Source: Patiria pectinifera (taxonomy: Eukaryota > Echinodermata > Asteroidea > Valvatida > Asterinidae). Taken from it: 64,000 nucleotides of DNA. The notes beneath the pieces are model-generated. The model saw only the letters and a program-made list of their open reading frames with translations. It did not search any database and was not told where the DNA came from. Shown piece by piece: positions 24,101 through 64,000 of the stretch. Location: positions 28,261,366 to 28,325,365 of the forward strand of contig CM057135.1 in the NCBI GenBank assembly GCA_029964075.1. Reading direction: 5' to 3'. The position numbers and the translations under genes are program-made. Position 1 is the stretch's first letter; each line of letters starts with the position of its first letter.

Positions 24101-27100
24101 CCTTTGTTGGCAATGCGGTCCGATACATATCCTTCATCTTCACCAGTTTCACCGCCTCCGAGAGTCCGCATTTCAAAATCTCCTTGACCTCCTCGGGATG
24201 GTCCAGCACCATGAGTTGACCAATCAGACGGTCCGAGATATCAAAGAGAATATCCGAGACTGGGTCGTCCGGCTCAAACTGAAGAAGTGATTGGAGGAGG
24301 GATAAAAGTGGCGCGGCATTTGGAGAGTTAGACACCTACATGTACAACATAAAAAAAGAAAGAAAAAAATTACAGCAAGTGTAGTTTAAATTTTCATCTA
24401 AGGGTTTTCAATATTGGTAACTGCCCCTTACTGACATCAATCTGGGAGCACTGCATGTTGGCTACTTTCTGAGAGCTTGTAATAAAAAAAACCCACAATC
24501 TTACCCAGGTTGGACTTGAACCCAGTACCTCTTGTGTACTAATGCAGACATCTTACACAATTCTCAAAGCTTGTCAGGGTCAAAGGGCAAGCTCTAGGTT
24601 AAGGGCTTAAGGCAATAGTTCAAACCTTTTCAGCCACCGTTTGGCAAAATTCAACCCAAAGTCATTGTCTGGGACCTACCTTTAAACAGACAACATGTTA
24701 GACCTTCTTAGTGAAAATGCCCAATGGCGATTGGCGAATGAATGTTGCAAAACTGCAGCATGCAACACTCTCAGGCCTTACCTGAGAAATTCTATGTTCA
24801 TGAGGTCTGACATGCTATGACGGACTGGTACATTAACAACCAAGTTTTGTCCCCCGAGGAAACATGCATTTTCTATGGGAACCATTTCTTTGAGGATTAA
24901 TGCTGGCAGAAGTAGGTCTTCAGCTTGGAAATGGGTTGAAAGGGCCAATGCTCCAGCTTTCTATTATTCATCGCCTTTTCAGGAATCGTGGCACTGCAAA
25001 GATTGGATCGATTCGAACAAGTCCTACTGATGCCTTATTTGTATTGCTATTTACATGGCGCATATGTTGCATATCATGCTTTTTGCGCCACCTGAAAGCT
25101 GAGACTGGGTTCTTTCAAGACCCGGTTTTACTTTTTTTTGCAAACAATCTGCACATCATAGGTTGCCAGCTGAAAAAGATTAGACTTTGGAATAACAAAT
25201 GAAAAGGTAATTTCCAAATTGCTATAAATCCATTGTTGCACGGTAATGATGTGCATCGGGTCGGGTCGACCAGGCCAAACCGACCCGAAACATTAGAGAT
25301 ATAAACCAAATCCGAACCGAAACCAATCTTAACTCCCTCAAACCGACCCGACCTGACCCGACAAAAAATAAGGTAAAACAAACCCAAACCGACCCGGAAA
25401 AAAAACCCGAAAAAACTGAATACCTGGCTTGACAAAGTGATCACTTTTTTTGTGCGTGCCCTTACCCACGTGGCATGAATTCTTTTGCAAAATCATCGTC
25501 TCTCTCCCTGTCATATACTCAGTGGGTTGATCGAGAGTAACTCCGCTTATTGAACAAACGCATGGTCACCATGCGGCATCATGAAAACTATACGGTTTAA
25601 TGCATTTATTTCACTGCCAGTCCCGATTCGACTGGAGAAATTAATACCGTGGGAACTTGATAGTGCGCTCATTGGCCACACCACACTGGGCTGCGGTCAC
25701 AATGACTGTCAATTATATTGCATCACCAGAATTTCTCAACTGTTTCGGTTTATTTCGGTTATTTTGGTTTATTTTGGTTTTTCAAAAGATGGCTAAACCG
25801 ACCCGACCTGACCCAAAAATGTAAATACAAAACCGAAACCGCCCCGACCCAACTGAAAAGATGAACAAACTGACCCGACCCGACCCGAAGGCGGTTTCGG
25901 GTCAGGTCGGTTTCGGTTTGGGGTCGGGTTTGCACATCATTATTGCACGGTTGTGAAAATATATAGAATGTACACAGAGTATCAGCTGTTTCTAAACTGC
26001 ATTTGTCACTTGATTGTACACTTAAATTGCGTTTAACCATATGACAGCCGTCGAAACTGACTTCGGGTGACCAGGAGAGGGCGGGATTCCAAATGGTCAC
26101 AGTGACGAAATAGCATCTTGAAAACAAACAAAATTTGGTTTCTCTTTTATGTCTGAAAAACAGCATGTATTCAGGGAGTTTTGAACCTTTTTAAAGATTG
26201 CATCAAAGACGTCCATGGGGCTGTTGAGGTCCACCCCGTCGTCAGGGAAACAGGACAAGAGTTCCTCATCGTCTTCCATCTTCTTCTCGTCGAAGACGTC
26301 CAGCTGGATGCAGAGATCGCCGTCATCCTTGTCATCTTGTCTGAGAGAGAAAGAGCGGATAAAGGAATTCATGTTGAAAAAGTGGGAAACAAAAATATCA
26401 GCTTAGCAGGTTAATTGGCGCAAAATTTGTCGCAGCAGTGTGACCTTGGGTGTGCTTTCAGTACTTGGTGCATAAGGCTACTTGGCAGAATCAGCATAGA
26501 GTTAAATTTTAAAAACTGGAAAGTGCACTCGCTACATGCAGACATGCCGACAAACAGCAGCCATATTAGGTAGGCAAAATGCAGAGTATTACAATTAGAA
26601 ATAAATACAACAACTTTGAAATACCGGAATGTGCCCACTTTCAGCACGTAAATTCTTGTCGTGTAGCATAGCAAGTACGCTCTCTAGTTTTTCTTAAAAA
26701 TATAACTCTATGAGAATCAGTGATAAAACGTGACACCTAGAAGCATCTAGAGTTAGTGTAGACAGTCGTGGAAAATTCTCATGTTCCTAAAAAAAAGGAA
26801 GATTTTTGGGCTACTCATCAAAGCTTTTTCCTTCTTAGACGTGAAGCTTCAAAGGAAAGCAGAACATCACATCATCTCTTCACTGTGAGATTTTGATAAC
26901 ACGGTGCACCAATTCATGGGGGAAAAAACAGGACGGTGCCAGCAAAAATATCAGACAGGTGCAATAAAAAGTTAACAATAACAAAGGTTTGCATAGAAAT
27001 CACCCCATCATGTTTGCTTTTTGTCTCCATAAAATAATGTCAGGGAGTATGCAAAAGGCAGCCTTAGGCCTATGTGTAAGAAGAATGGTTTTTAGCCATA

Positions 27101-45100: not shown

Positions 45101-48036
45101 AAGTTTGGAGGGCATCATGACTAAGACTTGAAGAATATACAAACGAAGACTATTTCAGGCACGGAAATCTTAAAAGATATAACAGGAAAATCCTTTCCCT
45201 CTTTTTGTGGCGGTATCTTGATTTATTTGGTTAATTTTGAAACAATCACTTTTCTTTACAATTCATTAGTGAAATAACAAAAATGAAGACAAAATGCTGA
45301 CTCATGCACCACCATCTGTATGAATACAGCATCAGTACCATATTCAAAGTCTTGTCAAAGAGCAAACAGAGCCTAGACAAGCTAATGGTGACAGCAAGTC
45401 AATCAGTCACCACATCTCCCCCTAGACTAAACTACAGCACTGGAACCCAATTAATTGGTGACTGATGATATAAGGCCAAATATACAACTTGATTCTAAGA
45501 CTAATTAGTTAAACTAAAATGTGCCATCAGCAGACATAAAATAAACAGGAATAACACGCCTGGCATAAATAGCAACTAAGCGGTTTTTATAATCATCCTT
45601 GTTGGACATTTCTCAGTGAACAAAAAGTCGGAAATATAAGTTTTGTCACGGAACTTTTCGGTTCAATTTGATAGGCCTGTATACCTCACTTGGGAACACT
45701 GTAAGAAATAACGAGAGCGCAAGCACTGAAACTCCTGAAACCCCAAAAATAAAAGTTGCACTTCGCCAGATTTTCAACGGGCATTGCAACACACAACTGA
45801 ATGCAATGATGCAGGCCCCACATTCAATTGTGTGCTTCAGCGCTTGCGCTCTCATTATTTCTCACACAGTCTTCCCAAGTGAGGCATCAAATTGAACCAG
45901 AAAGTTTCTGTGACACAACGTATATTTCAGACTTTTGTTTGTTCACCGAGAAATATCCAAACAAGGATGATTTATATAAACCACTCAGTTTGTTGCTGTG
46001 TTGCAGGTGTATATAAGTGTCCGACCACCTGTAAATATAGACACCTACATTTAAACCGAGTCATGTGTACATATTTAATGAAAGCTACACTGAAACGATC
46101 CATGGCCTAACACCCCAACAAAAATCTGAGGCCATTTACTTTAAAAAAACAAACTTGAGTTTCATTTCAAACGATAACTTTTAGCTTCACAACTTCGGAA
46201 CTGGTAACCGGGAAGCAAAATTGCCTGCACATTTAACAGCCCCCTAATTTACCGCTTTATCAGCCCATCAAGTAAAAATCAAACATTGACTGGGTTGTTC
46301 GCCAAACTATGCTGATTGTGGGGCCCAGTCGTGGTTATCTTGAAAACTTTTAGTTGGCCAGCAACCGGTAAAGGGTTAGGTCTCCACTCATTTGGTGGCT
46401 TTTTGGCCAAACATAATTAAGTAATAAACTGAACTCTGTACCATTCTATTTGAAGAGTTCTTGGTGGTCTGTGCAAAGTTAACTTTGGGGAACATTTGTA
46501 AGGTATACTGCTCACTGGACTTTAGTTACATCAAACGGCAACTCAGCATTTTGCTACGAACATTTTGTTTTTGCTTAGGAGATTTTTTTTATTGTAGAGT
46601 GACTCTTGTAGATACAAACACTGTTCATACAAATTCTGGTTATAGCAAAAAGCCTTGGTCCCAACTGTGTATTTATGTGCACAATGAATGGGACCAGCAC
46701 TCCACTTAATACAAACTTAATACCAACTGATATAACAAAACATGTTGGCTAGGTCCGGTTGAGTTTGTATTAAGGAAAGTCGACTATTATTAAATATTAC
46801 TTCTGGACTATCTGCGGTACTGCAGAAGTCAAATATGTACATCTGAATTGTACACCTAATAACAAAATGATAAGGATATTATCTCTCAAAGTTGTGATAG
46901 GTGCCTATGCAAGGTCAAAGTTAGACGGAAATTGTTGACAAAAAATGAAAAACTCTGACATAAAGGTTAAAAATACAGATGACTTTAAAATGATCTCAAA
47001 ACCTGTAGCAAACAAAAGAAAAGCAGTAGTAATAGAATAATCACAGGGTTTTTTTTAATGGTAGGGCCACTGGCCGGTTAGCAGACAGTAGAGTTCTGTG
47101 AATTATTGTTGTATTATTTCCAGTTGAATTGTCTTTAAAATAGCCAAGGCTCCTGTAACAACGCAAGTTACAGACAGACGATAGAAACCAAAGCTGCACT
47201 GTTATGGATGTGCCTTATTAGAGAACACACACTAGGAAAAGATGGTCATGACTGTACAGTAAACGGGAAGTGCAGTTCAAGTAAAATACCACATGAAATT
47301 GAACTTTTAAAGTTCAACAACCCCATTTCTTTTAACCCAATGCATTAGTTCCTGCTAATCTCAAAAACCTCCTCCCTTACCAACATGTATTACAGCAGTA
47401 GATTTGAGGTCTCCCAGAAGGTCGGGTTTTAATAAATACAAAGTTTTAACACCCATGCAAGGGGATGAAATTAGACACAACAATTGCCCCAAACAAAATA
47501 AACTGCCACAATCAATTTTCAGAAATATACGCCATGTGTAAAATTTCTCACTATGTTTTACATAAATTTCGAGTACACAATTTGATTATTGAGGACAAAT
47601 GTTTTTTAAGTGGTTAGAAAATGTCTGATGTCGGACCGTACTTTCACTGTGTGCAATTGAACTTACCTTCAGCCAGCTTGCGAGTATACTCCTCATTCTC
47701 ACAGATGTATTCCAGCCCAGCCTTGGAGTTCATGACCGCCTTGATGCAATTCACCACCTCGATCTGCAGGTAAGCCTGGGCCATGTTCATCCCGCGGCTG
47801 GACAGTCGCACCACCGACTCCAGCAGCACATCCAACCCATCCAGCTCCAAGAACCGCTGCAGCCATTCCTTGTCGCTGTTGGCGATGCGCTTCTTCAGAC
47901 CCGTGTAGTTGTTGAGCGTGGGCAGTTGGAGCAGCCGGATGCACAGTTCGGGCTCCGCATTCTCCAGGTTGGCCCCGAAGTCCACCAGGTCCTCGCGGTT
48001 GGCCTGGCTGACCTTCTTGGCAAACTTCTTGAACAT
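5675..48036 (-). CDS. INF2: INF2-type inverted formin (complete, 16 coding exons)
   Basis: Formin that nucleates and elongates actin filaments; vertebrate INF2 also severs and depolymerises them and acts at the ER, in mitochondrial fission and in vesicle traffic. Exons joined on the minus strand: 48036-47667, 33743-33628, 31760-31567, 26340-26187, 24335-23333, 21573-21419, 17285-17118, 16671-16586, 16374-16274, 16075-16005, 15040-14862, 13807-13687, 13516-13352, 12459-12286, 11873-10362, 6109-5675. Every junction is GT-AG and frame-compatible, giving 5,004 nt (1,667 residues plus stop). Domains by residue: DID/armadillo about 15-280, FH1 403-568, FH2 about 590-980, WH2/DAD-like 1009-1031, disordered tail 1032-1523, polybasic end 1524-1667. 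INF2 rather than DIAPH is indicated by the N-terminal sequence around [13 protein letters not shown], the DID signature [11 protein letters not shown], and the [14 protein letters not shown], all close to human INF2 as I remember it. It is longer than human INF2 (about 1,250 residues) because of the tail. The start ATG has a good context (CACCACCATG). The 5' UTR was not delimited. Confidence 0.93.
8240..8712. mobile_element. Repeat G copy 1 (TIR element)
   Basis: It aligns by eye with 22434-22824 at both ends (around ACTCCCTGTGAAATTATCC and TTTGAACACTTTT). Ends carry CATCATTTGC and its complement. A perfect 22-bp palindrome sits at 8391-8412. No coding capacity. Confidence 0.6.
8852..9117. 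mobile_element. MITE family P copy 1
   Basis: The left end GGGCCCAATTTCATAG and the right end CCATGAAATTGGGCA are inverted repeats. Internal sequence (CTATTTCATGGAGACTAAG) recurs inverted at 17434-17665. Non-coding. Confidence 0.75.
9592..9784. mobile_element. hAT-like MITE with 8-bp duplication
   Basis: A 193-bp element with inverted ends CAGTGTTGTAGTCGAG / CTCGGCTACAACGCTA and internal repeats of CACAAGACC. It is flanked by GCTATTAG (9584-9591) and GCTACTAG (9785-9792), an 8-bp target duplication with one mismatch, the size made by hAT transposases. Confidence 0.75.
10362..11873 (-). CDS. INF2: INF2 exon 15: rest of DAD and long disordered tail
   Basis: Residues 1020-1523. It opens with [12 protein letters not shown], completing the DAD, then a Ser/Arg patch ([18 protein letters not shown]) and about 460 acidic, Pro/Ser/Glu-rich residues without recognisable domain. 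The donor AAG|GTAACT is followed by 12 more in-frame residues ([12 protein letters not shown]) and a stop at 10323, so failure to use the donor would give a slightly different complete C-terminus. Confidence 0.88.
12286..12459 (-). CDS. INF2: INF2 exon 14 (basic helix and first half of WH2/DAD)
   Basis: Residues 962-1019. A charged single helix ([20 protein letters not shown]) is followed by [11 protein letters not shown] at 1009-1019, the leucine-rich half of the WH2-like DAD that binds actin monomers and the DID. The exon breaks exactly between K and G of the DAD, phase 0. Confidence 0.92.
12687..12960. mobile_element. Repeat I copy 1 (uninterrupted)
   Basis: It matches 59125-60005 in segments (TCATCTGAT..GGTGG.TCGTT, CCGCAAAAATAGAA-type, AACAAATAATGAATGTT), except that the 59-kb copy is split by another element. 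It lies in INF2 intron 14. Non-coding. Confidence 0.65.
13019..13200. repeat. Repeat L copy 1
   Basis: It matches about 35650-35850 (AGTGGCACCTGAC, ATCACAGTCGT.TGTGTA, AAGCTATT.AATATT). It is AT-rich and non-coding, in INF2 intron 14. Confidence 0.55.
13352..13516 (-). CDS. INF2: INF2 exon 13 (FH2 end)
   Basis: Residues 907-961, [20 protein letters not shown] through [20 protein letters not shown]. The YFVEDTSK block corresponds to YLCEDAQQ of human INF2 at the end of FH2. Phase 0 both sides. Confidence 0.92.
13687..13807 (-). CDS. INF2: INF2 exon 12 (FH2 coiled coil)
   Basis: Residues 866-906, [20 protein letters not shown] to QEQLQSFIK, a heptad-like amphipathic helix that would belong to the FH2 coiled coil/post region. 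Acceptor GCCTAG, donor AAG|GTCAGT. Confidence 0.9.
14026..14650. mobile_element. MITE family A copy 1, split by a younger element
   Basis: The left end TCATTCTATAAATCTGGGGT and right end ACCCTAAATTTATAGACTGA are inverted repeats. Without the insertion at 14091-14473 it would be about 240 bp, like the copies at 21668-21929 and 40383-40619. It lies in INF2 intron 11. Confidence 0.8.
14091..14473. mobile_element. TTAA-flanked MITE with 140-bp arms
   Basis: A 383-bp near-palindrome: arms 14091-14233 and 14331-14473 are inverted copies starting AGAGGTTGTGGAATGCTCG. It is flanked by TTAA at 14087-14090 and 14474-14477, the target duplication of piggyBac elements. The uninterrupted family-A copy at 21668 shows what the empty site looks like. 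No transposase. Confidence 0.85.
14862..15040 (-). CDS. INF2: INF2 exon 11 (FH2)
   Basis: Residues 807-866, [20 protein letters not shown] and the helix [19 protein letters not shown]. It continues the conserved FH2 block that follows GNxMN. Acceptor GTTGACAG, donor CAAG|GTGAGA. Confidence 0.92.
15290..15752. repeat. Repeat J copy 1
   Basis: About 460 bp that matches 50890-51362 along its length (TTGTTACACTGACCTGTTT, CACCAGGTGC, TTTGCAAATATTGTAT). Same orientation, no coding capacity; lies in INF2 intron 10. Confidence 0.65.
16005..16075 (-). CDS. INF2: INF2 exon 10 (FH2, GNFMN)
   Basis: Residues 783-806, [20 protein letters not shown] and FMNS. The GNFMN motif at 801-805 is the FH2 signature helix (GNxMN). 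Donor TCT|GTAAGC. Confidence 0.92.
16274..16374 (-). CDS. INF2: INF2 exon 9 (FH2)
   Basis: Residues 749-783, [20 protein letters not shown] to LQKACK, equivalent to YQLRIECMLL of human INF2. Acceptor CATGCAG, donor AAAG|GTGGGT. Confidence 0.9.
16586..16671 (-). CDS. INF2: INF2 exon 8 (FH2)
   Basis: Residues 721-749, [20 protein letters not shown] to YLMLTGV, matching the human stretch on AxRAKLASADHFYLLLL. Acceptor TTTATAG, donor GTGAGT. Confidence 0.9.
17118..17285 (-). CDS. INF2: INF2 exon 7 (FH2 knob)
   Basis: Residues 665-720, [19 protein letters not shown] onward to LRVFPEKDE. The NIFLKQF motif contains the Ile (residue 678) that is invariant in formin FH2 domains and whose mutation blocks actin assembly in other formins. 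Phase 0 on both sides. Confidence 0.92.
17434..17665. mobile_element. MITE family P copy 2
   Basis: It begins GGGCCAAATTTCATGACGCT and ends at AGTCTCCATGAAATAGATGG, the latter matching an internal part of copy 1 in reverse. Lies in INF2 intron 6. Confidence 0.6.
17666..19547 (-). other. INF2: INF2 intron 6, central part, nothing specific seen
   Basis: AT-rich intron sequence with no open frame of coding character, no clear repeat boundary and no RNA gene that I can support. Confidence 0.5.
19548..19706. mobile_element. Pogo/Tigger-like MITE in a TA site
   Basis: A 159-bp element with ends CAGTCGAATAATACACAAAT and GTATTAACGAGACTCGATTG, flanked by TA on both sides. The CAGTCGA... termini and TA duplication are typical of pogo-type Tc1/mariner elements. 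It shares internal sequence (GTCCCAACTGTG, AATGAATGGGA) with 46597-46785. Confidence 0.75.
19750..21307 (-). other. INF2: INF2 intron 6, left of exon 6
   Basis: Non-coding. A short inverted pair, AACCAGTTTGCGCC near 20393 and GTGAACTGGTTAG near 20515, may mark a small element of about 135 bp; the boundaries are uncertain. I see nothing else. Confidence 0.4.
21419..21573 (-). CDS. INF2: INF2 exon 6 (FH2 lasso/linker)
   Basis: Residues 613-664, [16 protein letters not shown] through [20 protein letters not shown], corresponding to the FH2 lasso/linker region. The acceptor is TGCACAG; the donor CCACAGAG|GTGAAA leaves phase 0. Confidence 0.9.
21668..21929. mobile_element. MITE family A copy 2 (uninterrupted)
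   Basis: The left end TCATTCCATAAATTTGGGGT and the right end GGACCCTAAGATT...GAATGA are inverted. The interior matches copy 1 on both sides of the younger insertion (CTACCTACCCAACACAT..AAA, TGAATGGCAAAT). Confidence 0.8.
22434..22824. mobile_element. Repeat G copy 2 with 22-bp TIRs
   Basis: It starts AAGGCATATAGGATCATTTG and ends CAAATGATCCTATAATGCCT, nearly perfect inverted ends. About 390 bp, no open frame. Lies in INF2 intron 5. Confidence 0.75.
23333..24335 (-). CDS. INF2: INF2 exon 5: linker, FH1 and first residues of FH2
   Basis: Residues 279-612. After a helical linker ([20 protein letters not shown]...) and an acidic spacer, residues 403-568 form FH1: proline runs of 5-7 separated by GMGG, with eleven GMGG and one GMEG spacers. 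FH1 binds profilin-actin and feeds FH2. The exon ends with [15 protein letters not shown], the start of FH2 whose Trp (about residue 597) belongs to the lasso that links FH2 dimers. The donor is ACTG|GTGAGT. Confidence 0.92.
23467..23890 (-). repeat. INF2: Coding minisatellite that builds FH1 (36-bp unit, 72-bp higher order)
   Basis: In frame, units [12 protein letters not shown] and [12 protein letters not shown] alternate at least three times, so a 72-bp dimer is the real repeat unit; three variant units follow toward the C-terminal side. Third-position identity between dimers is high, suggesting recent expansion. The plus strand is G-rich. Confidence 0.85.
24490..24575 (-). mobile_element. 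SINE A fragment (tRNA-derived)
   Basis: On the minus strand GTAAGATGTCTGCATTAGTA leads to a B-box-like GGGTTCAAGTCC, the same arrangement as the SINE A copies at 54 and 60 kb. It is degenerate and truncated. Confidence 0.5.
25244..25942. mobile_element. hAT-like non-autonomous element, GGGTCGGGT-rich ends
   Basis: A 699-bp element. Terminal inverted repeats TAATGATGTGCA...TGCACATCATTA are followed inward by arrays of CGACCCGACC-type repeats. Perfect 8-bp target duplications TTGCACGG flank it at 25236-25243 and 25943-25950. The interior has no transposase. It lies in INF2 intron 4. Confidence 0.88.
26187..26340 (-). CDS. INF2: INF2 exon 4 (end of DID)
   Basis: Residues 227-278: a very acidic helix-rich segment, [20 protein letters not shown], ending in [10 protein letters not shown]. 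The acceptor is CTCTCAG. The donor AAAAAG|GTTCAA has a poor match to the consensus after GT, so this splice site may be weak. Confidence 0.9.
27200..28340 (-). other. INF2: INF2 intron 3, unassigned part
   Basis: Mostly AT-rich. At about 27305-27410 there is a tract of imperfect TTGACAATGACAGT-like repeats. I see no exon. Confidence 0.4.
28341..28610. mobile_element. TTAA-flanked MITE (piggyBac-like)
   Basis: It lies between TTAA at 28341-28344 and 28607-28610. Ends are CCTCCCTTACCCC and, inverted, CCCTAACCCTGCTGAATCC. The interior repeats CTGCTGAATCCAACA four times with variation. A related arrangement is at 55929-56238. Confidence 0.65.
28640..28850 (+). promoter_or_regulatory. Promoter-like CpG-rich island inside an INF2 intron
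   Basis: On the plus strand an inverted CCAAT (CCTATTGG, 28650), an E-box context GTCACGTGGG (28660), a CACCAATA (28721), a nearly perfect palindrome ACGCGCGCAGTATGCACTGC continuing to GCACGT (28743-28770), then CTATAAAAGGAG (28777) and, 55 bp later, ATGGCC. The composition is much richer in CpG than the neighbours. It could be a core promoter of an antisense or intronic transcript or of a lost mobile element; no gene body is recognised downstream. Confidence 0.35.
28971..29076. mobile_element. Small foldback/MITE
   Basis: 106 bp with inverted arms CAAGTACGTTTAAAACTGGC and GCCGGTTAGG-complement (GGCTTTAAACATACTTG). The centre is GC-rich. It lies just downstream of the promoter-like island. 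Confidence 0.6.
29100..31308 (-). other. INF2: INF2 intron 3, right part
   Basis: AT-rich intron with poly-A/T tracts; I see no exon, RNA gene or bounded repeat here. Confidence 0.4.
31309..31513. mobile_element. MITE family C copy 1
   Basis: Inverted ends GGAAAAAATGTTGCAACCTG and CAGGTTGCAACCCTTTTT. The interior (TGTACAAAGTCTATGGAGAG, GAAATGTTTCTCAGTCCCAG) recurs in reverse at 49675-49883 and 49299-49512. It ends about 50 bp before INF2 exon 3. Confidence 0.82.
31567..31760 (-). CDS. INF2: INF2 exon 3 (DID core, [11 protein letters not shown])
   Basis: Residues 163-227, from [18 protein letters not shown] to [10 protein letters not shown]. It corresponds to the part of human INF2 in which most kidney-disease (FSGS) substitutions lie. 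The exon ends with two bases of an Arg codon completed by exon 4. The donor is GTAAGT. Confidence 0.93.
32011..32092. repeat. Short tandem repeat ATAGGTTTGCCA
   Basis: Four copies of ATAGGTTTGCCA separated by short spacers; two are directly adjacent. Confidence 0.7.
33296..33610. repeat. G-rich minisatellite next to INF2 exon 2
   Basis: Imperfect units of GTGGTGGGGGAGTGCAGGGG-type on the plus strand. It starts 18 bp inside intron 2, immediately after the exon 2 donor. In the INF2 transcript it is C-rich; the other strand is strongly G-quadruplex-prone. Confidence 0.8.
33628..33743 (-). CDS. INF2: INF2 exon 2 (armadillo region)
   Basis: Residues 124-162, [20 protein letters not shown] and onward to ALENYK. 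The acceptor is ATATAG; the donor AAG|GTAAGAG is followed within 20 bases by a C-rich (minus strand) minisatellite. It matches the human segment ALDTSN...VFELLAALC. Confidence 0.93.
34822..34911. repeat. 45-bp tandem duplication
   Basis: Two adjacent, almost identical 45-bp units beginning AACCCAACGAATAAAGGC. The near identity suggests a recent slippage or duplication. Confidence 0.85.
35440..35850. repeat. Repeat L copy 2 with ATTCAAAT tract
   Basis: The right part matches 13019-13200. The left part (TCGAATA..TTAGTATTTGATTA, GACCAAATATTCG) is roughly inverted to the right end, which closes in a run of CAAATATT repeats. Confidence 0.5.
36480..36670. repeat. 111-bp imperfect tandem duplication
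   Basis: TTTTACTCTGCATTTCGTAT at 36490 and TTTTACTCTACATTCAGTAT at 36601 begin matching units, each preceded by a poly-G run and followed by TATTCATAT..TACAATATTCA. Confidence 0.7.
37265..37310. repeat. Poly-G / poly-C inverted pair
   Basis: A run of 12-13 G is followed 14 bp later by about 14 C. It could form a long hairpin and sits directly against the Harbinger-like element. Length may be affected by sequencing of homopolymers. Confidence 0.6.
37320..37691. mobile_element. PIF/Harbinger-like MITE copy 1
   Basis: A 372-bp element with inverted ends GGCCAAAAAAAAAAAGTCTC and GAGACTTTTTTTTTTTTGGC, then TGGTTTCTGGTAT / ATACCAGAAACC inside. TAA flanks both ends (37317-37319, 37692-37694), the 3-bp TWA duplication of PIF/Harbinger transposases. 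No open frame. Confidence 0.85.
38301..38607. mobile_element. MITE with GGGCGTCRAT ends
   Basis: GGGCGTCAATCGC at the left is inverted relative to CCATCGACGCCC at the right, 307 bp apart. No target duplication was clear. Confidence 0.55.
40110..40378 (-). mobile_element. SINE B copy 1 (tRNA-derived)
   Basis: On the minus strand the element begins at 40378 with GGGGAGTCAGGTTGGCGTAG (A-box-like TTGGCGTAGCGG), then a B-box-like GGGTTCGATTCC. A body shared with 55284-55480 follows (GATTGGGTTTTCAGTCCCTA, ATTCCGTGGGTTTTC, AAACTGTAATTTCTTC), and it ends in an AAATAAATAATAAATAAA-type tail at 40110-40135. Confidence 0.82.
40383..40619. mobile_element. MITE family A copy 3
   Basis: TCATTCTATAAATCCGGGGT at the left pairs with ACCCCAACTTTTATGAATGA at the right. 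The interior matches the other copies. It abuts the 5' end of SINE B copy 1. Confidence 0.8.
41031..41256. mobile_element. Repeat K copy 1 (uninterrupted)
   Basis: It matches 57297-57845 on both sides of an insertion in that copy (GAGCTTTTAAGAGCTCAGTG, TAATTAGATATCATGGT). Ends TTGGGCAATTCC / inverted TGGGCAAACAGGCAAT. Confidence 0.75.
41366..41653. mobile_element. hAT-like MITE with CAAGGGCGGATCCAG ends
   Basis: 288 bp. Inverted ends CAAGGGCGGATCCAG / CTGGATCCGCCCTTG with A-rich and T-rich interior. Perfect 8-bp duplications GACCTATA at 41358-41365 and 41654-41661. Non-coding. Confidence 0.9.
41773..42000. mobile_element. MITE family P copy 3
   Basis: Full-length with near-perfect inverted ends GGGCCCAATTTTATGGCTCT and AGAGCCATGCAATTGGGCCC. 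Direct repeats of GTAAGCAGGTATTTTC lie near the right end. Confidence 0.85.
42140..44220 (-). other. INF2: INF2 intron 1, unassigned part
   Basis: Non-coding AT-rich sequence. I see no exon and no bounded repeat here. Intron 1 is 13.9 kb in all, a usual place for regulatory sequence, but I cannot point to any. Confidence 0.4.
44225..44400. mobile_element. Pogo/Tigger-like MITE
   Basis: 176 bp with inverted ends CAGTGAACTCTTGATAAGTC and GACTTATTGAGATTTCACTG. TA precedes the left end; the right flank is AA, one base from TA. Confidence 0.75.
45553..46012. mobile_element. Foldback element with arms of about 175 bp
   Basis: A long imperfect palindrome. The left arm (45553-45735) contains GGTTCAATTTGATAGGCCTG and CGAGAGCGCAAGCACTGAA; the right arm (45830-46012) contains their complements in reverse order. 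The loop is about 95 bp. Arm identity is visibly high near the centre and lower outward. Confidence 0.8.
46597..46785. mobile_element. Pogo-like MITE, relative of 19548-19706
   Basis: Ends GAGTGACTCTTGTAGATACA and GTATTAAGGAAAGTCGAC with TA nearby. It shares GGTCCCAACTGTG and AATGAATGGGACC with the 19.5-kb element. Confidence 0.65.
47667..48036 (-). CDS. INF2: INF2 exon 1: start codon and N-terminal armadillo region
   Basis: It encodes residues 1-123 plus one base of the next codon. It begins [16 protein letters not shown] and runs through [15 protein letters not shown], a conserved INF2 N-terminal stretch. The donor is GAAG|GTAAGT. The basic N-terminus is shorter than that of the human protein. 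It is followed by the longest intron of the gene, 13.9 kb. Confidence 0.93.
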
Positions 48037-48194
48037 GGTGGTGGTGTTGTGAGATGGAACTTGTCGTTCCGATTTAACTCCCTTGTGTTACAACAGCCAC
48101 ATGGCTCTTAAAAAAACTAAGAGCTGCAATGACAACAAACAGGAATTTCATTAAGTTTCCTGAAAACTCTGAGGTTACTCCGTATTTTGTCGCA

Positions 48195-48362
48195 CAATTG
48201 GCAAGCACATCTCAACATTTTCACACAGATAAGGACATAGTGAGAGTTTGCAGTAACAACATGAGGAAGAATCTCTTTATGAGATGTGTTGTTCTGAAAA
48301 GAACTGGTTGGTTGTGAAACTCGACGTTCCGATCAGTATGCTCGGATGGTCTTCAGGAGAAA
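48195..48362 (-). mobile_element. Dispersed repeat with hammerhead-like core and histone-like stem-loop, copy 1
   Basis: On the minus strand it reads CTCCTGAAGACC (48359 down), a stem CCGA...TCGG, GAACGTCGAG, then AGTTCTTTTCAGAAC and about 90 bp ending near CTGCAAACTCTCAC. CUGAAGA plus GAA followed by CGUC has the order of a hammerhead ribozyme core (CUGANGA - stem II - GAA). The same sequence from ACGTCGAG onward recurs at the window end. It lies 160-330 bp upstream of the INF2 start codon. Confidence 0.6.
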
Positions 48363-49030
48363 GCTGGAAAAAGATTATTCCACATGGGGTAACTGCAAAC
48401 CCTCACTATTTACACTTCAAGTACCACCATGCAAAGTTTCAAATCTTATTTTAAGGACTTAATTGAAAAATGCAAGTGCTTTTGTATAGACAAACAACAG
48501 CATCCTATTTCTTGCCCTTAACTTCGTAAAATCTCCAATTTATTGCACTATACATATCTACAAACAAAATACAAATTTAACCTTGTAAATTAAAGCATGT
48601 AAAATGCCAACATGACAAACTGTAAATTGAAAAGGGAAAATGCTGCTCTATTGAAAGTTGCTGTGTCTACACGGCTCCATTGATACATTAAGAGGCAAAC
48701 TCATCATGAATGGAGTTAATCCTCTTAAACATCACTTTCACTGGATTCAATTAAATATGGTGATGCACACAGACACAATTGATACATTATACCTAACCAT
48801 CAGCCCCTGACTTGGATACCAAAAAAGCACTTGTTTAAGTTATCTAAGAGACTTGTTAACTAGGTTGTTGAACTCTATGTAATCAAGAGGGTTACATCCA
48901 ATTAAAGCTACTGCCCCATACAAAACTGAAAGTGAGATGCTGGGGATGGATTGCAAACTTCACACTTTATTGTACTAGAAAGACAGTCAAAGATTCCACT
49001 CTGATTTTGCCTCCGAAGCGTCCTTGCTAA

Positions 49031-53797: not shown

Positions 53798-54208
53798 TTA
53801 TAAGGTGGAATTTTGCGGCGGGGTGTTTTGCCCTTCAAGGACGTTTAAACACTGTATTCTCAGCATGTTACATCCCGAGTGAAAGTTGGAAAAATTCACT
53901 CAGGTGGGACTCGAACCCACGACCCCCTGCTTTGTAGTGCAGATGTCTTGCCACTTGACCACCGAGCTAACGGGATCAGTTGGCTGGTTCGAATCTGATG
54001 TACATAGCAGCAGGTACTGCATGAACTATTATAAGGTGGAATTTTGCGTCGGGGTGATATAAATCAAATTAGGTTTTGCCCTTCACCGACGTTTAAACAC
54101 TGTATACTCAGTGTGTTACCTCCCGAGTGAAAGTTGGAAAAATTCACTCAGGTGGGACTCGAACCCACGACCTCCTGCTTTCTAGTGCAGACGTCTTACC
54201 ACTTTCAG
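53798..54208 (-). mobile_element. SINE A dimer with 13-bp target duplication
   Basis: Two head-to-tail SINE A units of 231-bp period on the minus strand, the 5' (right) unit truncated within its tRNA part. Each has an A-box-like TGGTCAAGTGG (lost in the truncated one) and B-box GGGTTCGAGTCC, then GTGAATTTTTCCAACTTTCA. GGTATTGATATTG flanks the whole array at 53785-53797 and 54209-54221, so the dimer was inserted as one retrotransposed unit. Confidence 0.85.
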
Positions 54209-58000: not shown

Positions 58001-61000
58001 TGCTTGTGGATGCCAGGTAAGCGGCCAGCTGGCCTGCCATTGCCACAGCACTCACACCATCCTTGTCAATCACTTCTGTGCCACACATGAAACCTTCCAC
58101 GAAACAATGCAAATGTTGGGAATTTAGTAAAACCAAGTTTTCTCTATTATTCAGAGCACACCACTGATAAAAAAAAGCCCAAGTGATTCAGGTGGGGTAA
58201 AGTTAATTTCAAAGTGTATTGGTTGTTCTTTAAATGTAGCCCTCTGAACCAAGTCTCTCTCCGGTTGGAGTGGTAATCAATTGCGTGATAAAATCTGACA
58301 AATTCAGTAACCAAGGGGATATTGAGATAAATAATGAACAATTAGCAATGCTATTGAATACTTATGCCAAATTTCAACTTTTTTTTTTTGATTTCAAGAA
58401 TTGTGGACCTTTCACATGCAATGAAGCTGAAACAAAAATCCCCATCTAAAAATGAAAAAATGAAGAAAAAAAAAACCAAAACAATTTTTGGACTGTATTT
58501 TAAGGGTCAAACAGCCAAAATTTGATTAATAGAAAAAAAACTGATGAGGAGATATTAACGACAGGGATAACATTAGTTTTGAAATATTTCAACAACAAAG
58601 GCAAAGGAAAAATCTGCAAAATTTAGCATCATTTTTCCCCAACGTATCATTCGCCATCAAAAACAGGAAAAGGTATTCATTACAAAATTTAAACCAAATT
58701 AGTAATTCTATTAATAGTCCAAACTCTGATTAAAAAAGAAATGAGATAATAAAACGTTTGTGAAACATTTACCAATAGCCTCTTCAAATGCAAAGAGCAC
58801 TGTCTTTCCCTGCTTGACCAGCTCATCAGCCTTGTTGCCCATCCACTTGAATCCTGTCAACGTTTCCTGCCAAGTCAAACCATAATGGCCGTTGACATCA
58901 CAAATGCCACTTCACAATCTGCTGGCTAACACAAGTGTGGACTCGAAAATGGAATACTGCAAAGCCACAAATATTGATTTTAAAACGTATAAAAGAACCT
59001 TTAGTGTAAACTTTATTTATGGAAGTTGAAGAATTACTAACCAAGAATTTAGGAAAAGCTCACTTGTTTTTTTTTCTTCCCAAAAAAAGATAGGGTTTGA
59101 ATCAACAGTCATCAAACAGCCCAGGTTTTTTTATACAATGTCTGAATAAATTCCCGTCATCTGATATGGTGGGTCGTTAATCACGTGTCATTGAATTATG
59201 CATCTCAAACCATGGCCTAGCCTTGGTCAAGGTGTCCGACGATAGTGTCTGATGATCGATGGTCCGCTAAAATAAACAGCAGTAGCCGCACGCTTCACAC
59301 TCACACCTACTGCACGATGTGCTAACAGCGACCTCACGTGGCTTGGCTAAAGTATTCAAATCAGTTGGTGATGATCGGACGCCTTGCAACAACTGTGCAC
59401 CTTGGCTTATGTTTCTCTTTATTTTGTCAATGGATTTCCAGCGACGTTCTCGTATCCGAATAAAGATGAGAATATTATTCAGTACTTGGTCGTGGAGGCT
59501 CATATTTTACATGGATAGAGAGCTGGTTACATTCTCCAACAAGTTTGGAGTCCGCAGACTAAATATAACTTGATAGAAATCTAGCAACAAAATAACAAAA
59601 ATTGCACGAAAATTATAGGCCATCGCGACAGATGTTCCAAGGCGTTCGACCAGCACCAACTGATTTGCATAGTGTAACCTAACCGCGTGAGGTCACTGTT
59701 CATGCTTTGTACAGTACGTGTGAGTGCGCATATCGCGTGGCTATTGTTTATTTTAGCGGCCGATCATCAGGCACTATCATTGAAAGCCTAAACCAAGGCT
59801 ACACATGGCCTGGCCTCACCGCAAAAATAGAAATTCCATTCCAAGGTCACACTACTGGTGTTCAGGTGGTTTTTATATAACAAATAATGAATGTTCTACA
59901 TTGTGACATGGAAAGAATAATTTCATTCGGTGACAAATAGAATGTTCCACTCCACTTGACTCTGTCTCACGAAATCGAACATTCCATCTGCCATTTCATG
60001 AAATTATTCATAAACATTCATTATTCATAAACATTCGTTATTCATTAACATTTGTTATTCATAAACATTCACTATTTGTACAATTTTGGCCCTTCACCGA
60101 CTTGTTTGTGTGGGTCTGCAGTCCTGAATTCATCGACATCAAACAGATATTGGATTTTGGAGGATTTTGGAGGATTTAGAAGGTTAACGCAGGTCAAAGT
60201 TATAGCATACCATAAACTGGAATCCCTCCTTGTTACCAATAGACCTCAGAATCTTGGATGAGACTGTACTGGCAAGCATGAAGACATCCGAGTCTGGGGA
60301 ATGAAATGAAATGTCTCTACTTGTTTGAGGGCCATATTGTTAACGAAAAGATTACTGCGTCTTTACCACTGATCATTTATAAAGAAAAACTTTGATAAAT
60401 CTTCAGTGTATTTACACAACTCTGGCTAGCGTTATCATGAAGGTACTTGCACTTTTTCGTAGTTGAAGCTTAGTAAATCACTGTCTGATAATTTTATATT
60501 GGGTTTTGCTCTTTGCTGTTTATGTATAAGGCTGTATTCTCAGCGTTTTCCGCGGGCTTGCAAGAAAAAATTCACAAGCTGACTGAGGAGGGACTCGAAC
60601 CCACGACCTCCTGCTTACTAGTGCAGACGTCTTACCACTCGACCACCGAGCTTGCCGGGGTCCGCTGGCCAGTTCGAGTCTCATATAACAGCCGGTACCG
60701 CAACCAATCTTTTTATCATTATAATATTTCCATCTGATAAAATTTCCATCTCCGCGACGCAAATTCCATCTTATGAAACACGGCCTGTAAGTTATCGTAT
60801 AAGTTCTTGGAGTGACTCATCACACTTCTTGATAAATTGTTCTCCTTGAAATTATTGTTGACACAATTCCACTTGAATACACGCTGAAACTTAAAGGAAA
60901 TGTTTTGAACTGAAAAGGAAGACTACGTACATATTCCATCATTCTGAGTGTCCGGATTTGCCTTCTGGTAGCAGACCCACGTCCACCAGCCCAGCAATGC

Positions 61001-62075
61001 CCCCACCTCGTTGCCGGTGAATATCTTCCAGTTCCCCCCCGGTTGTTTCTCTGCCAGGGCAAACCGGTCCGCGTCCGGGTCGTTGGCGAAGATGATGCTG
61101 CTGTCGTTCTCGTTGGCCGTCTGGATGGACAGGTCGAGGGCGCTCTTGCCTTCCTCTGGGTTCGGGTACTTGACCGTCGGGAAGTCCGGGTCGGGAGTGT
61201 TCTGTATTGGAAATGGCAGAATGACGGACAGTAACAGATGATGGTTTTTTGATTTACTGTAGTTTCTTTGGAATCATTAGCGACCAACTATGATTGTGGT
61301 GGGAAAATATGGCCGAGCTCTGAATTGATGCTTGTTTACAGTCAAAATGAAGCTAGCTTTCTTTTAATGCTCAAGAAAATAAAGGATTATTCTGGATTGG
61401 AAATGTCAGACTGACAGACAGTAACAGCTGATTTTGTTTTCGATTTATCACAGTTTCTCAGCAATGATATGACCAACTGTGGTTGAAGAGGTAAAACATA
61501 GGCGAGCAAGCACTGTCTAAATTTGAGATAGATTAAAAGTACAAAGCTACTTATTTCTGGATACAGATTTATCCTCAATATCTTAGCAGCGGCGCATCCA
61601 GCTTTTGAAGTCGGGGGGGGGGGGGGGGCAACCGCACTCGCACAACCGCGCCAAAATGTAGATATGTTTTTTTCTCCGGACACTTGGCCTCCGTAAAATA
61701 AAAAACCGCTGGTACCCATCTTCCAAATGGGGGCACGCTTCAAAACTTACCATTATTACACATACTGGAAAATATATGCCAATTTTCATGGTGCATTGTA
61801 ACGGTTTTGGAGCTTGGTTAACTTTTTTTGGCTGTCAGAACTCTTTAACCATTTATGGAAATAGTTACTAAAAAAAAAAATCTTTCACAAAAATCCGCCG
61901 GGGGGGTGGGGGGGGGGGGGGGTTAAGATTCAAGGACCAATTTGTGTCTACCTGTTCCACCACGTCGATGATTGGGGGCAGACCGATAGCCTCGACTGCC
62001 CTCTTGACATACTCAGTGCCCACTCCATGCATGGCTGTGTAGGTGATTCGCACAGGACAATTCACATTCAGCTCT
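54940..62075 (-). CDS. PGM2: PGM2/PGM2L1-type phosphohexomutase, last nine coding exons
   Basis: Alpha-D-phosphohexomutase family. Vertebrate PGM2 interconverts ribose 1- and 5-phosphate (and glucose phosphates less well); PGM2L1 makes glucose 1,6-bisphosphate. Exons on the minus strand: 62075-61952, 61201-60931, 60293-60211, 58866-58773, 58093-57964, 56942-56843, 56475-56389, 55696-55566, 55039-54940. All are GT-AG and in frame, giving 372 residues and TGA, about the C-terminal 60% of a 610-residue enzyme. Visible sites: AMHGVG near the start, the Mg-binding loop [17 protein letters not shown], the sugar-binding FEEAIG, and the phosphate-binding [22 protein letters not shown] and [13 protein letters not shown] closely resemble human PGM2 as I remember it. 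The N-terminal part with the catalytic phosphoserine lies beyond the right edge. Which of the two activities it has cannot be told. Confidence 0.93.
55099..55211. mobile_element. Small MITE in the last PGM2 intron
   Basis: 113 bp with inverted ends TAGACATAAGACATAATGAC and GTCATAATGTCTTAGGTCTA; an inner CCTATGAGAGC is also inverted. Confidence 0.8.
55284..55556 (+). mobile_element. SINE B copy 2 (tRNA-derived)
   Basis: Plus strand: GGCAGTCAGAATGGCTTAGT (A-box), CAGGTTCGATTCCTG (B-box), then GATTGGGTTTTCAGTCCCTA and AAACTGTAATTTCTTCTCAC shared with 40110-40378. It is opposite in strand to copy 1. The 3' limit is approximate. Confidence 0.8.
55566..55696 (-). CDS. PGM2: PGM2 exon h (phosphate-binding RASGTEPK)
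   Basis: [20 protein letters not shown], then [20 protein letters not shown]. RxSGTEPK binds the substrate phosphate in domain 4. The donor GTAAGTG lies next to the end of SINE B copy 2. Confidence 0.95.
55761..55928. mobile_element. MITE family P fragment (copy 4)
   Basis: TTCATTTTCATGGCTCTGTTAA at the left and internal CATGAAATATGTTAACTGTTG match copy 3. It is interrupted or truncated at the right by the TTAA-bounded element. Confidence 0.55.
55929..56238. mobile_element. TTAA-flanked MITE with CCCTAACCCT ends
   Basis: TTAA at both ends; left CCCTAACCCTCCAGGGT, right (inverted) ACCCTAACCCTGCC. About 300 bp, non-coding. The CCCTAA ends resemble telomere repeats but are only two units long. 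Confidence 0.68.
56389..56475 (-). CDS. PGM2: PGM2 exon g
   Basis: [20 protein letters not shown] and DNNQPDNKA, a block almost identical in vertebrate PGM2. Phase 0 both sides. Confidence 0.95.
56843..56942 (-). CDS. PGM2: PGM2 exon f
   Basis: [20 protein letters not shown] through RIRTLDDGE, equal to YGYHITKASYFIC of human PGM2. Acceptor CTCCAG, donor GTATGC. Confidence 0.9.
57297..57845. mobile_element. Repeat K copy 2, split by an insertion
   Basis: Ends GGTAATTCCAGCATTACG / CATAACGCTGGAATCACC. The segment 57447-57775 is absent from copy 1 at 41031-41256. Confidence 0.75.
57447..57775. mobile_element. Element nested in repeat K
   Basis: About 329 bp with inverted ends TTTGGGTGATTGTG and CATTGTGAATCACCCGAA. 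It interrupts TCTCTGAAT/AATTAATTAG of repeat K; the duplication appears to be 3-4 bp (AAT/AATT). Confidence 0.7.
57964..58093 (-). CDS. PGM2: PGM2 exon e
   Basis: [20 protein letters not shown] through [15 protein letters not shown] is the conserved block after the sugar loop. Donor CAAAC|GTAAGA. Confidence 0.93.
58773..58866 (-). CDS. PGM2: PGM2 exon d (sugar-binding FEEAIG)
   Basis: [20 protein letters not shown] and [18 protein letters not shown] and FEEAIG are the substrate-binding loop motifs of PGM2. Donor falls inside the Gly codon. Confidence 0.95.
59125..60075. mobile_element. Repeat I copy 2, split by a foldback element
   Basis: The two halves (59125-59218 and 59804-60005) match 12687-12960. 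The right end runs into four tandem ATTCATAAACATT-like units at 60000-60070. Confidence 0.7.
59219..59800. mobile_element. Foldback element nested in repeat I
   Basis: 582 bp. Arms of about 175 bp: AGCCTTGGTCAAGGTGTCCG... and its inverted partner ending AGCCTAAACCAAGGCT, sharing CGCTAAAATAAACA and the palindromic GATGATCG region. CATGGCCT occurs at 59211-59218 and 59804-59811, a possible 8-bp target duplication offset by ACA at the right. Confidence 0.75.
60211..60293 (-). CDS. PGM2: PGM2 exon c
   Basis: Encodes [20 protein letters not shown] to EGFQFM, the family's TVSSKIL helix. Acceptor CCCCAG, donor GTATGC. Confidence 0.93.
60500..60785 (-). mobile_element. SINE A copy (monomer)
   Basis: Minus strand: AGCTCGGTGGTCGAGTGGTA (A-box), CGTGGGTTCGAGTCCC (B-box), GTGAATTTTTTCTTGC. 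Sequence 5' of the tRNA part (CGGTACCGGCTGTTATATGA) is also shared with the 54-kb units, so the tRNA unit is internal. Confidence 0.82.
60931..61201 (-). CDS. PGM2: PGM2 exon b (metal-binding DPDADR)
   Basis: Starts [20 protein letters not shown] and contains [13 protein letters not shown], whose three Asp coordinate Mg2+, then [13 protein letters not shown]. Phase 0 start, ends with one base of a Tyr codon. Donor GTACGT. Confidence 0.95.
61205..61545. repeat. 189-bp tandem duplication at a PGM2 splice acceptor
   Basis: ATTGGAAATGGCAGAATGAC at about 61205 and ATTGGAAATGTCAGACTGAC at about 61394 begin matching stretches of some 150 bp. The first copy abuts the acceptor of exon b. Confidence 0.72.
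61605..61625. repeat. Poly-G run
   Basis: About 17 G after CTTTTGAAGTCG; another of similar length is at 61899-61922, 25 bases left of exon a. Both are in the intron between exons a and b. Confidence 0.7.
61952..62075 (-). CDS. PGM2: PGM2 exon a (AMHGVG)
   Basis: Encodes [20 protein letters not shown] and [21 protein letters not shown]. Begins with the last base of a codon. An alternative acceptor two bases further in would break the frame relation to the family. Donor CAG|GTAGAC. Confidence 0.9.
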
Positions 62076-63635: not shown

Positions 63636-63918
63636 ATACTGTGTTACAACTGCAAGCAGTTAGCACAGAAACCATAGATATGGGGTATTTAACCTGCCAA
63701 ATATGCTTATTGAACCAACATAATTTTTTTCTTAAGTAACTTCGCTTAAGGCCTATTTATACACACGTGACTTTGTCACGGTTTTTATAAATATATATAA
63801 ATAAGTAAGCGTGTTCACATTAACGCGACAACGTTGTGCCACTTATTGTGCAATTAAACAAAAAAATCAAATTTGAAGTAAGATTTGAGGCTTTGCATGG
63901 TGGAGATACTAAATAATG

Positions 63919-64000
63919 AAAGGTTTGCGGAAACACCATGTGCGAATAATCTCAACTAAGAGAATGGTTCTGAAAAGAACCAGAGGTATAAACTCGACGT
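63919..64000 (-). mobile_element. Hammerhead/stem-loop repeat, copy 2 (cut by window end)
   Basis: Minus strand from the edge: ACGTCGAGTTTATACCTC, then GGTTCTTTTCAGAACC (63965-63980), a perfect fit to the histone 3' stem-loop consensus, then a segment like copy 1 ending GCGGTTTCC-type sequence (CACATGGTGTTTCCGCAAAC). The hammerhead-like part would lie just outside. Confidence 0.6.

Follow-up and report, generated by a model that had tools for sequence, protein, structure and literature searches.

The window, the whole 64,000-nt stretch of Patiria pectinifera DNA that was analysed, carries on its minus strand exons of a diaphanous-type formin at 47644-48084 and 23316-24332 (Drf_GBD, 8.1e-11; Drf_FH1, 2.4e-10), an exon of a phosphoglucomutase-like gene at 60923-61270 (PGM_PMM_II, 1e-14), and two tRNA matches above the Rfam cut-off at 53896-53968 and 60580-60652, possibly tRNA-derived repeats. 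About 200-415 nt ahead of the first likely coding ATG of the formin lies a palindromic insertion, which may fall within that gene's promoter or 5' UTR, or close to either. The parts of this insertion, and a second, related unit at the edge of the window, are given in Table 1.

Table 1. Repeat-derived features of the window
Feature	Position	Strand	Basis or remark
Whole palindromic insertion, two inverted unequal leader-unit arms	48237..48451	.	Inverted arms; unit matches on both strands; fold
Tail-less arm, unit positions 47-179, carrying both motifs	48238..48368	-	90.2% to the 216-nt unit
Tailed inverted arm, unit positions 139-216	48368..48450	+	84.5% to the unit
Hammerhead-like core, CTGAAGA - stem II - GAAC GTC	48323..48356	-	Stem II decayed in the window copy
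Histone-type hairpin	48291..48305	-	Histone3 19.3 bits, under cut-off; outer G-C pair gone in the window copy
Flanking repeat TAAGGACATA, likely target duplication	48230..48239	+	
Flanking repeat TAAGGACTTA, likely target duplication	48452..48461	+	
Second unit, a young sister-subfamily member that runs past the right edge of the window	63879..64000	-	Continues in L119

A preliminary description of this DNA had placed at 48195..48362 a repeat that joins a hammerhead-like core to a histone-type stem-loop, and all the motifs that it named are present as described: by direct reading of the minus strand, CTGAAGA is followed by CCATCCGAGCATACTGATCG, GAAC and GTC, and then by the hairpin AGTTCTTTTCAGAAC, at a distance of 17 nt rather than the roughly 30 given there. 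Those bounds cover both motifs but are slightly off, with 48195 to about 48236 being flanking DNA and the insertion extending to about 48451, because the inverted second arm had gone unnoticed. The two arms are 83% complementary over 42 nt (48237-48278 with 48368-48409), TA is present at both outer ends, and near-identical repeats of 10 nt each flank the insertion. When both arms are included (48225-48415), the predicted fold is much stronger than that of shuffled sequences (z -5.84); that of the 168 nt first described does not go beyond shuffles (z -0.13).

Taken alone, the hammerhead-like core of the window copy does not rise above chance: the 64-kb window contains 15 matches to a loose CTGANGA...GAA[A/C] pattern, and the Rfam hammerhead models gave no match to this copy even at E<=10. 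The hairpin stays under the Histone3 cut-off of 34 bits, with an E value of 0.019 in a search of 801 bases. Both motifs are weak when viewed in this copy alone; their significance comes from the family to which it belongs, with its dispersed copies and its better-kept hairpins of up to 40.0 bits.

That the stretch is a repeat was confirmed in its own genome (613.5 Mb, 1020 contigs), where 40 copies of the window-copy family, here family A, were scored among 545 candidates. The loci analysed were the 30 best-scoring of these 545; a majority consensus was built from 36 units, and motifs were counted over 34 aligned units. The unit at the edge of the window is 77% like family A and represents a young sister subfamily, family B, in which 40 copies were scored of 1635 candidates, nearly all of them 96-98% identical to the window-edge unit, and 20 of the 40 were analysed as loci. 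The two subfamilies differ by about 23% overall. Because the family B query included the tail, the main arms of that sample were selected for the tail, and their partner arms were not so selected.

Compared with the 216-nt unit, the 30 family A loci gave 49 matches, 28 of which begin at unit positions 52-62, about 30 nt after a TATAAA that is kept in six of the seven family A copies reaching that far. At the other side, 23/49 matches end at 176-192 and 19/49 at 205-216 (7/49 elsewhere), so that there are two alternative positions for the 3' end. The nearer one lies about 114 nt after the start of stem II, and the tail that separates it from the other measures about 36 nt. The copies at the 20 young loci have a common 3' end and nested 5' truncation. 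Exact hairpin patterns were found in none of the viral contigs or genome contigs searched, and the 34 stretches of viral contigs that contain CTGAAGACSATCCGAG were rejected as candidates, none of them continuing into the motif. At one locus (L120, C12:8790200-8797700), a duplicated block has in each of its two copies several tandem repeats of about 72 nt just upstream of the TATA box; these might be an enhancer-like array.

Both subfamilies form head-to-head dimers in which a single arm carries the tail. In family A, all 10 resolved dimers, the window copy among them, have one arm ending near 180 and the other near 216, a count that omits 5 of the 15 inverted-arm loci (L037, L050, L055, L057 and L064) on the grounds that the outer end falls at neither site or that the locus is composite. 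L047, which was counted, and L057, which was omitted, are duplicates of one locus, and a 43-nt opposite-strand piece about 570 nt away at L042 was not counted as an arm. Half of the 20 family B loci are dimers, with arms ending at 164-171 and 126-135 in 10/10. Nine of these ten young dimers lie between direct repeats that are 9-15 nt long and contain no more than one mismatch, in a comparison whose stretches could include up to 6 and 10 letters of the element; at the remaining dimer, L133, such a repeat is not clear. In a control with mismatched loci, 0/90 pairs reached a flanking repeat of 8 nt. For family A, a flanking repeat of at least 6 nt was reported in five of the ten resolved dimers, a figure that comes without a control. 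These flanking repeats are likely target duplications.

A tail on one inverted arm, target duplications, a TATA box, and a fixed 3' end with 5' truncation make up the anatomy of a Penelope pseudo-LTR (pLTR), and it is by this anatomy that the retroelement proposed in the preliminary description can be assigned to the Penelope-like kind. According to PMC3846280, published Penelope elements include TATA-bearing and inverted pLTRs, with a 31-bp tail optional on one inverted pLTR and duplications of 8-10 bp in several copies. The Anolis element PAc has a frame that begins at the hammerhead stem II, reverse transcription that starts 111-118 nt into the frame, and a tail of 30-40 nt; each of the two target strands is cut and extended (PMC11167929). 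Like PAc and the Pen families of Adineta vaga, the unit combines a TATA-bearing pseudo-LTR and a hammerhead-type motif in the leader with an optional 30-40-nt tail, an inverted pLTR with one tail and 8-10-nt duplications (PMC11167929; PMC3846280), and the distance from the start of stem II to its first end, about 114 nt, lies within the 111-118 nt of PAc (PMC11167929). Unlike them, it has a histone-type hairpin (with a downstream element in the older subfamily), a GAACGUC core and many leader-only insertions, and no coding region was found attached to it.

A Penelope-type reverse transcriptase and GIY-YIG, suggested earlier as neighbours of intact copies, do exist in the genome, among them a Penelope family (RVT_1, 8.1e-8; GIY-YIG, 3.5e-5) whose open frames are long, reaching 905 aa (63 scored out of 1587 candidates), but none was found joined to the unit where examined. 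The 3' flanks of GIY-YIG were without the unit at the 20 of 29 listed genome places that were examined, 10-kb stretches beside or upstream of unit copies held nothing like a Penelope protein, and no reverse transcriptase or GIY-YIG frame was present in the roughly 2.4 kb that precede one young copy. In the part of the copies and GIY-YIG places covered, then, the two domains do not stand beside or between pseudo-LTRs; membership thus rests on anatomy, no autonomous member emerged, and the unit copies may have moved in trans. Two candidates were rejected: the intact Penelope family of P0001 as autonomous partner, since its ends do not match the unit, and a C12 locus with two direct units as full element, which proved to be a duplicated block with no reverse-transcriptase frame. 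Rfam scans of 20 loci from other Penelope or GIY-YIG places found neither Histone3 nor hammerhead matches.

We consider it likely that the stretch described, a short and palindromic insertion now decayed, comes from the 5' leader (pseudo-LTR region) of a Penelope-like retroelement family and was produced by the following mechanism. Transcription would start about 30 nt after the TATA box, just ahead of the CUGAAGA core, and Penelope enzymes would presumably serve as the engine. The reverse transcriptase, primed on nicked target DNA, would begin inside the RNA at either of two sites separated by about 36 nt, the first of which lies about 114 nt past the beginning of stem II, and would proceed back towards the RNA 5' end, so that mostly leader is copied. 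Each target strand would prime one copy from a different start site, and the predicted outcome is a head-to-head dimer that has a single tail and is bounded by target duplications. The leader so copied bears a variant minimal Penelope-type hammerhead, with stem II kept, no stem III and a core one A short, which probably does not cleave itself, together with a histone-type hairpin that is accompanied in the older subfamily by host-like flanks and a U7-type downstream element.

The dimeric structure itself admits other origins. If the arms were terminal inverted repeats, the insertion would be a DNA transposon of the MITE or fold-back type, mobilised by a transposase through cut-and-paste, and the window copy does have 42-nt complementary arms with TA at both outer ends. 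This reading, taken from the inverted arms, was dropped once the copies were aligned, and we regard it as very improbable: nested 5' truncation contradicts it, many 5' truncation points being set against a fixed 3' end; the arms are unequal and often absent, with single-arm copies common; the tail is on one arm only; and the flanking repeats vary between 9 and 15 nt, as opposed to a duplication of fixed length. Dimers could also come from self-priming of one cDNA instead of separate priming on both target strands, which is how PMC3846280 reads the inverted structures of Adineta Penelope elements with palindromic junctions. A copied-back cDNA should, however, have equal ends, whereas the resolved dimers are one-tailed in 10/10 and 10/10 cases, and their arms also differ in 5' extent; we judge self-priming to be unlikely. 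One tail per dimer would fit two separate starts, and the large set of leader-only insertions, with one tail in every resolved dimer, favours two reverse-transcription starts, one per target strand, over self-priming. This set bears on two unsettled matters: the way in which Penelope-like elements produce and terminate their RNA, and the reason why their insertions have inverted halves with a single tail.

The association of a hammerhead-like motif with a histone-type hairpin in one conserved unit was upheld at the family level. The consensus of family A reads CTGAAGA, then directly a 7-bp stem, CGATCAG/CTGATCG, closed by the loop AGCATA, then directly GAACGTC, and later GGTTCTTTTCAGAACC. The stem II that had been read in the window copy as CCGA/TCGG does exist, but as a decayed form of this family stem. 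Over the 34 aligned units, CTGANGA is exact in 16, and GAAC is present in 30, compared with a single unit that has GAAA; a consensus without conserved GAAA is among the outcomes that the preliminary description had listed as refuting its reading. Since GAACGTC is also kept in the consensus of the sister subfamily, GAAC is the norm across the family and not, as had been thought, decay of the window copy. Covariation of stem II above shuffles was absent within family A; the one paired exchange is between the subfamilies, where CGATCAG/CTGATCG becomes CGGTCAG/CTGACCG in a single event, the exchanged pair being A-U in 12 rows and G-C in 10 distinct rows and paired in 22/22. Apparent paired changes from G-C to A-U within family A were not counted because separate CpG decay on the two sides would fit them as well. 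Altogether, the earlier reading is partly supported, being largely right in kind and wrong on GAAC.

As with the window copy, the Rfam hammerhead models proposed for this check gave no match to the family A loci or the young-subfamily units scanned. Only one Hammerhead_1 match above the cut-off was reported in the genome (C21:8717334-8717379, 37.8 bits; 73 of 76780 candidates scored), and its place is none of the unit places listed. Penelope hammerheads are described in two reviews as minimal and devoid of helix III (PMC6155905, PMC7761336), and the unit resembles the minimal type I form given there in having CUGANGA, stem II, GAA and no real stem III. It departs from the minimal core CUGANGA - stem II - GAAA in having GAAC for GAAA and in giving no Rfam match. 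With the core one A short, no or weak self-cleavage is to be expected, and it is doubtful that the hammerhead-like core of the unit cleaves itself. In the Anolis element, hammerhead mutants were without effect on insertion in vitro (PMC11167929), so that loss of ribozyme activity would not necessarily halt an element of this kind.

The hairpin is better preserved in other copies. The Rfam Histone3 (RF00032) cut-off of 34 bits was passed by 5/10 family A loci, with the best at 40.0 bits (E 1.3e-8); a further three matched below the cut-off, and two gave no match at E<=1. The strict histone hairpin consensus is present in 18 of the 34 aligned units. Unit positions 97-145 align with an H4-like gene of the host (L113) at its 3' end, over 49 columns, 43 of them identical (88%), and the alignment takes in the AC-rich flanks and a purine-rich AAAAGAGA downstream; its score of 66 compares with at most 27 in 500 shuffles, and each flank alone beats 2000 shuffles. 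The names H4-like and H1-like were given by eye from the last codons. The unit is like RF00032 in its GGYYYUUYUNARRRCC hairpin (the consensus as quoted in the preliminary description), its AC-rich flanks and its downstream purine-rich element, and unlike it in that the hairpin is located in the leader of a mobile element, not behind a histone reading frame. It also differs from the host histone genes fetched, whose stem reads GGCTC...GAGCC in 19 histone-type loci, by a paired change to GGTTC...GAACC, the unit having U-A where the hosts have C-G. The young subfamily keeps the 16-nt hairpin without change, but its flanks and downstream element have diverged, and its Histone3 score of 26.1 bits is below the cut-off. 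A search for the U7 family returned zero matches anywhere, control genomes included, and is uninformative. The new point is the histone-type signal in a Penelope-type leader; among the matches listed, judged by title and the opening of the abstract, we found no report in the open-licence literature of a histone-type stem-loop in a Penelope-like element.

The two motifs raise the question of whether either has a role. A short, non-coding, dispersed unit with a hammerhead-type motif recalls the animal retrozymes of about 170-400 nt (PMC7229834), non-autonomous retroelements, and the family could in principle have spread by way of hammerhead-processed circular RNA. This is quite improbable given a core without GAAA, no Rfam hammerhead match, copies that begin near the TATA-driven site and not after GUC, and an inverted instead of tandem arrangement; in short, the unit differs from metazoan retrozymes in being non-tandem, in its TATA box and one-tailed inverted dimers, and in having no intact ribozyme core. 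Somewhat more plausible, though still improbable, is that the resemblance to a hammerhead arose by chance, since any leader hairpin between CTGAAGA and GAAC would give the same appearance, and that the Penelope anatomy is the one meaningful feature. The 15 loose cores in the window, the missing GAAA, the absence of an Rfam match and of covariation within family A all point in that direction, whereas CTGAAGA, stem II and GAACGTC are adjacent and conserved in two subfamilies about 23% apart, with one paired exchange, at the position that the hammerhead has in PAc (PMC11167929). For the histone-type signal, the chances are nearly even that it was captured from the end of a histone gene and is inert, playing no part in the element. 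The 49-nt similarity to an H4-like gene end, the capture of histone pieces elsewhere in the genome (the H1-like repeat described below), and the loss of the flanks and downstream element in the young subfamily speak for capture; against it, the 16-nt hairpin is unchanged between subfamilies despite the diverged flanks, and a paired change sets its stem apart from that of the host genes.

In histone pre-mRNA, cleavage falls between the hairpin and the downstream element and involves SLBP and the U7 snRNP (PMC5636114), and we infer from the sequence that the element might use this processing. Cleavage at the histone signal would detach the leader from the remaining RNA, which counts against an easy functional story, and since the inserted copies extend past the predicted cut point, their templates were not cut. 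We offer, as a speculation that we consider unlikely, that the Penelope-like leader has a working host-type histone signal, which would be bound by SLBP, with the U7 snRNP in addition in the older subfamily, and would tie an RNA without poly(A) to S phase, when nicked DNA could serve target-primed insertion, the hammerhead-like motif being either retired or a protein-assisted ribozyme. The close likeness of the hairpin to that of histone messages hints that the host's histone RNA machinery may be borrowed by the element, and the family, as a mobile RNA with a histone-type hairpin, is directly testable for SLBP and U7 use.

Two other repeats of this genome touch on these motifs. Dispersed Histone3 matches of 42.3 bits (75 of 129999 candidates scored) were considered as young copies of the unit and rejected, those fetched being copies of an H1-like gene end. 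They form a dispersed repeat on many chromosomes (L098-L110, L116) with a captured H1-like gene 3' end, including stem-loop and downstream element; most fetched copies are alike over more than 1 kb and, by eye, they have no stop codon of the kind present in the tandem-cluster copies L114 and L115. Separately, L077 and L117 belong to a Penelope-like family of near-identical copies with open frames up to 903-905 aa, and at L117 a CTGAAGA-stem-GCAACATC motif about 380 nt after the stop may be a variant hammerhead of that family's own.
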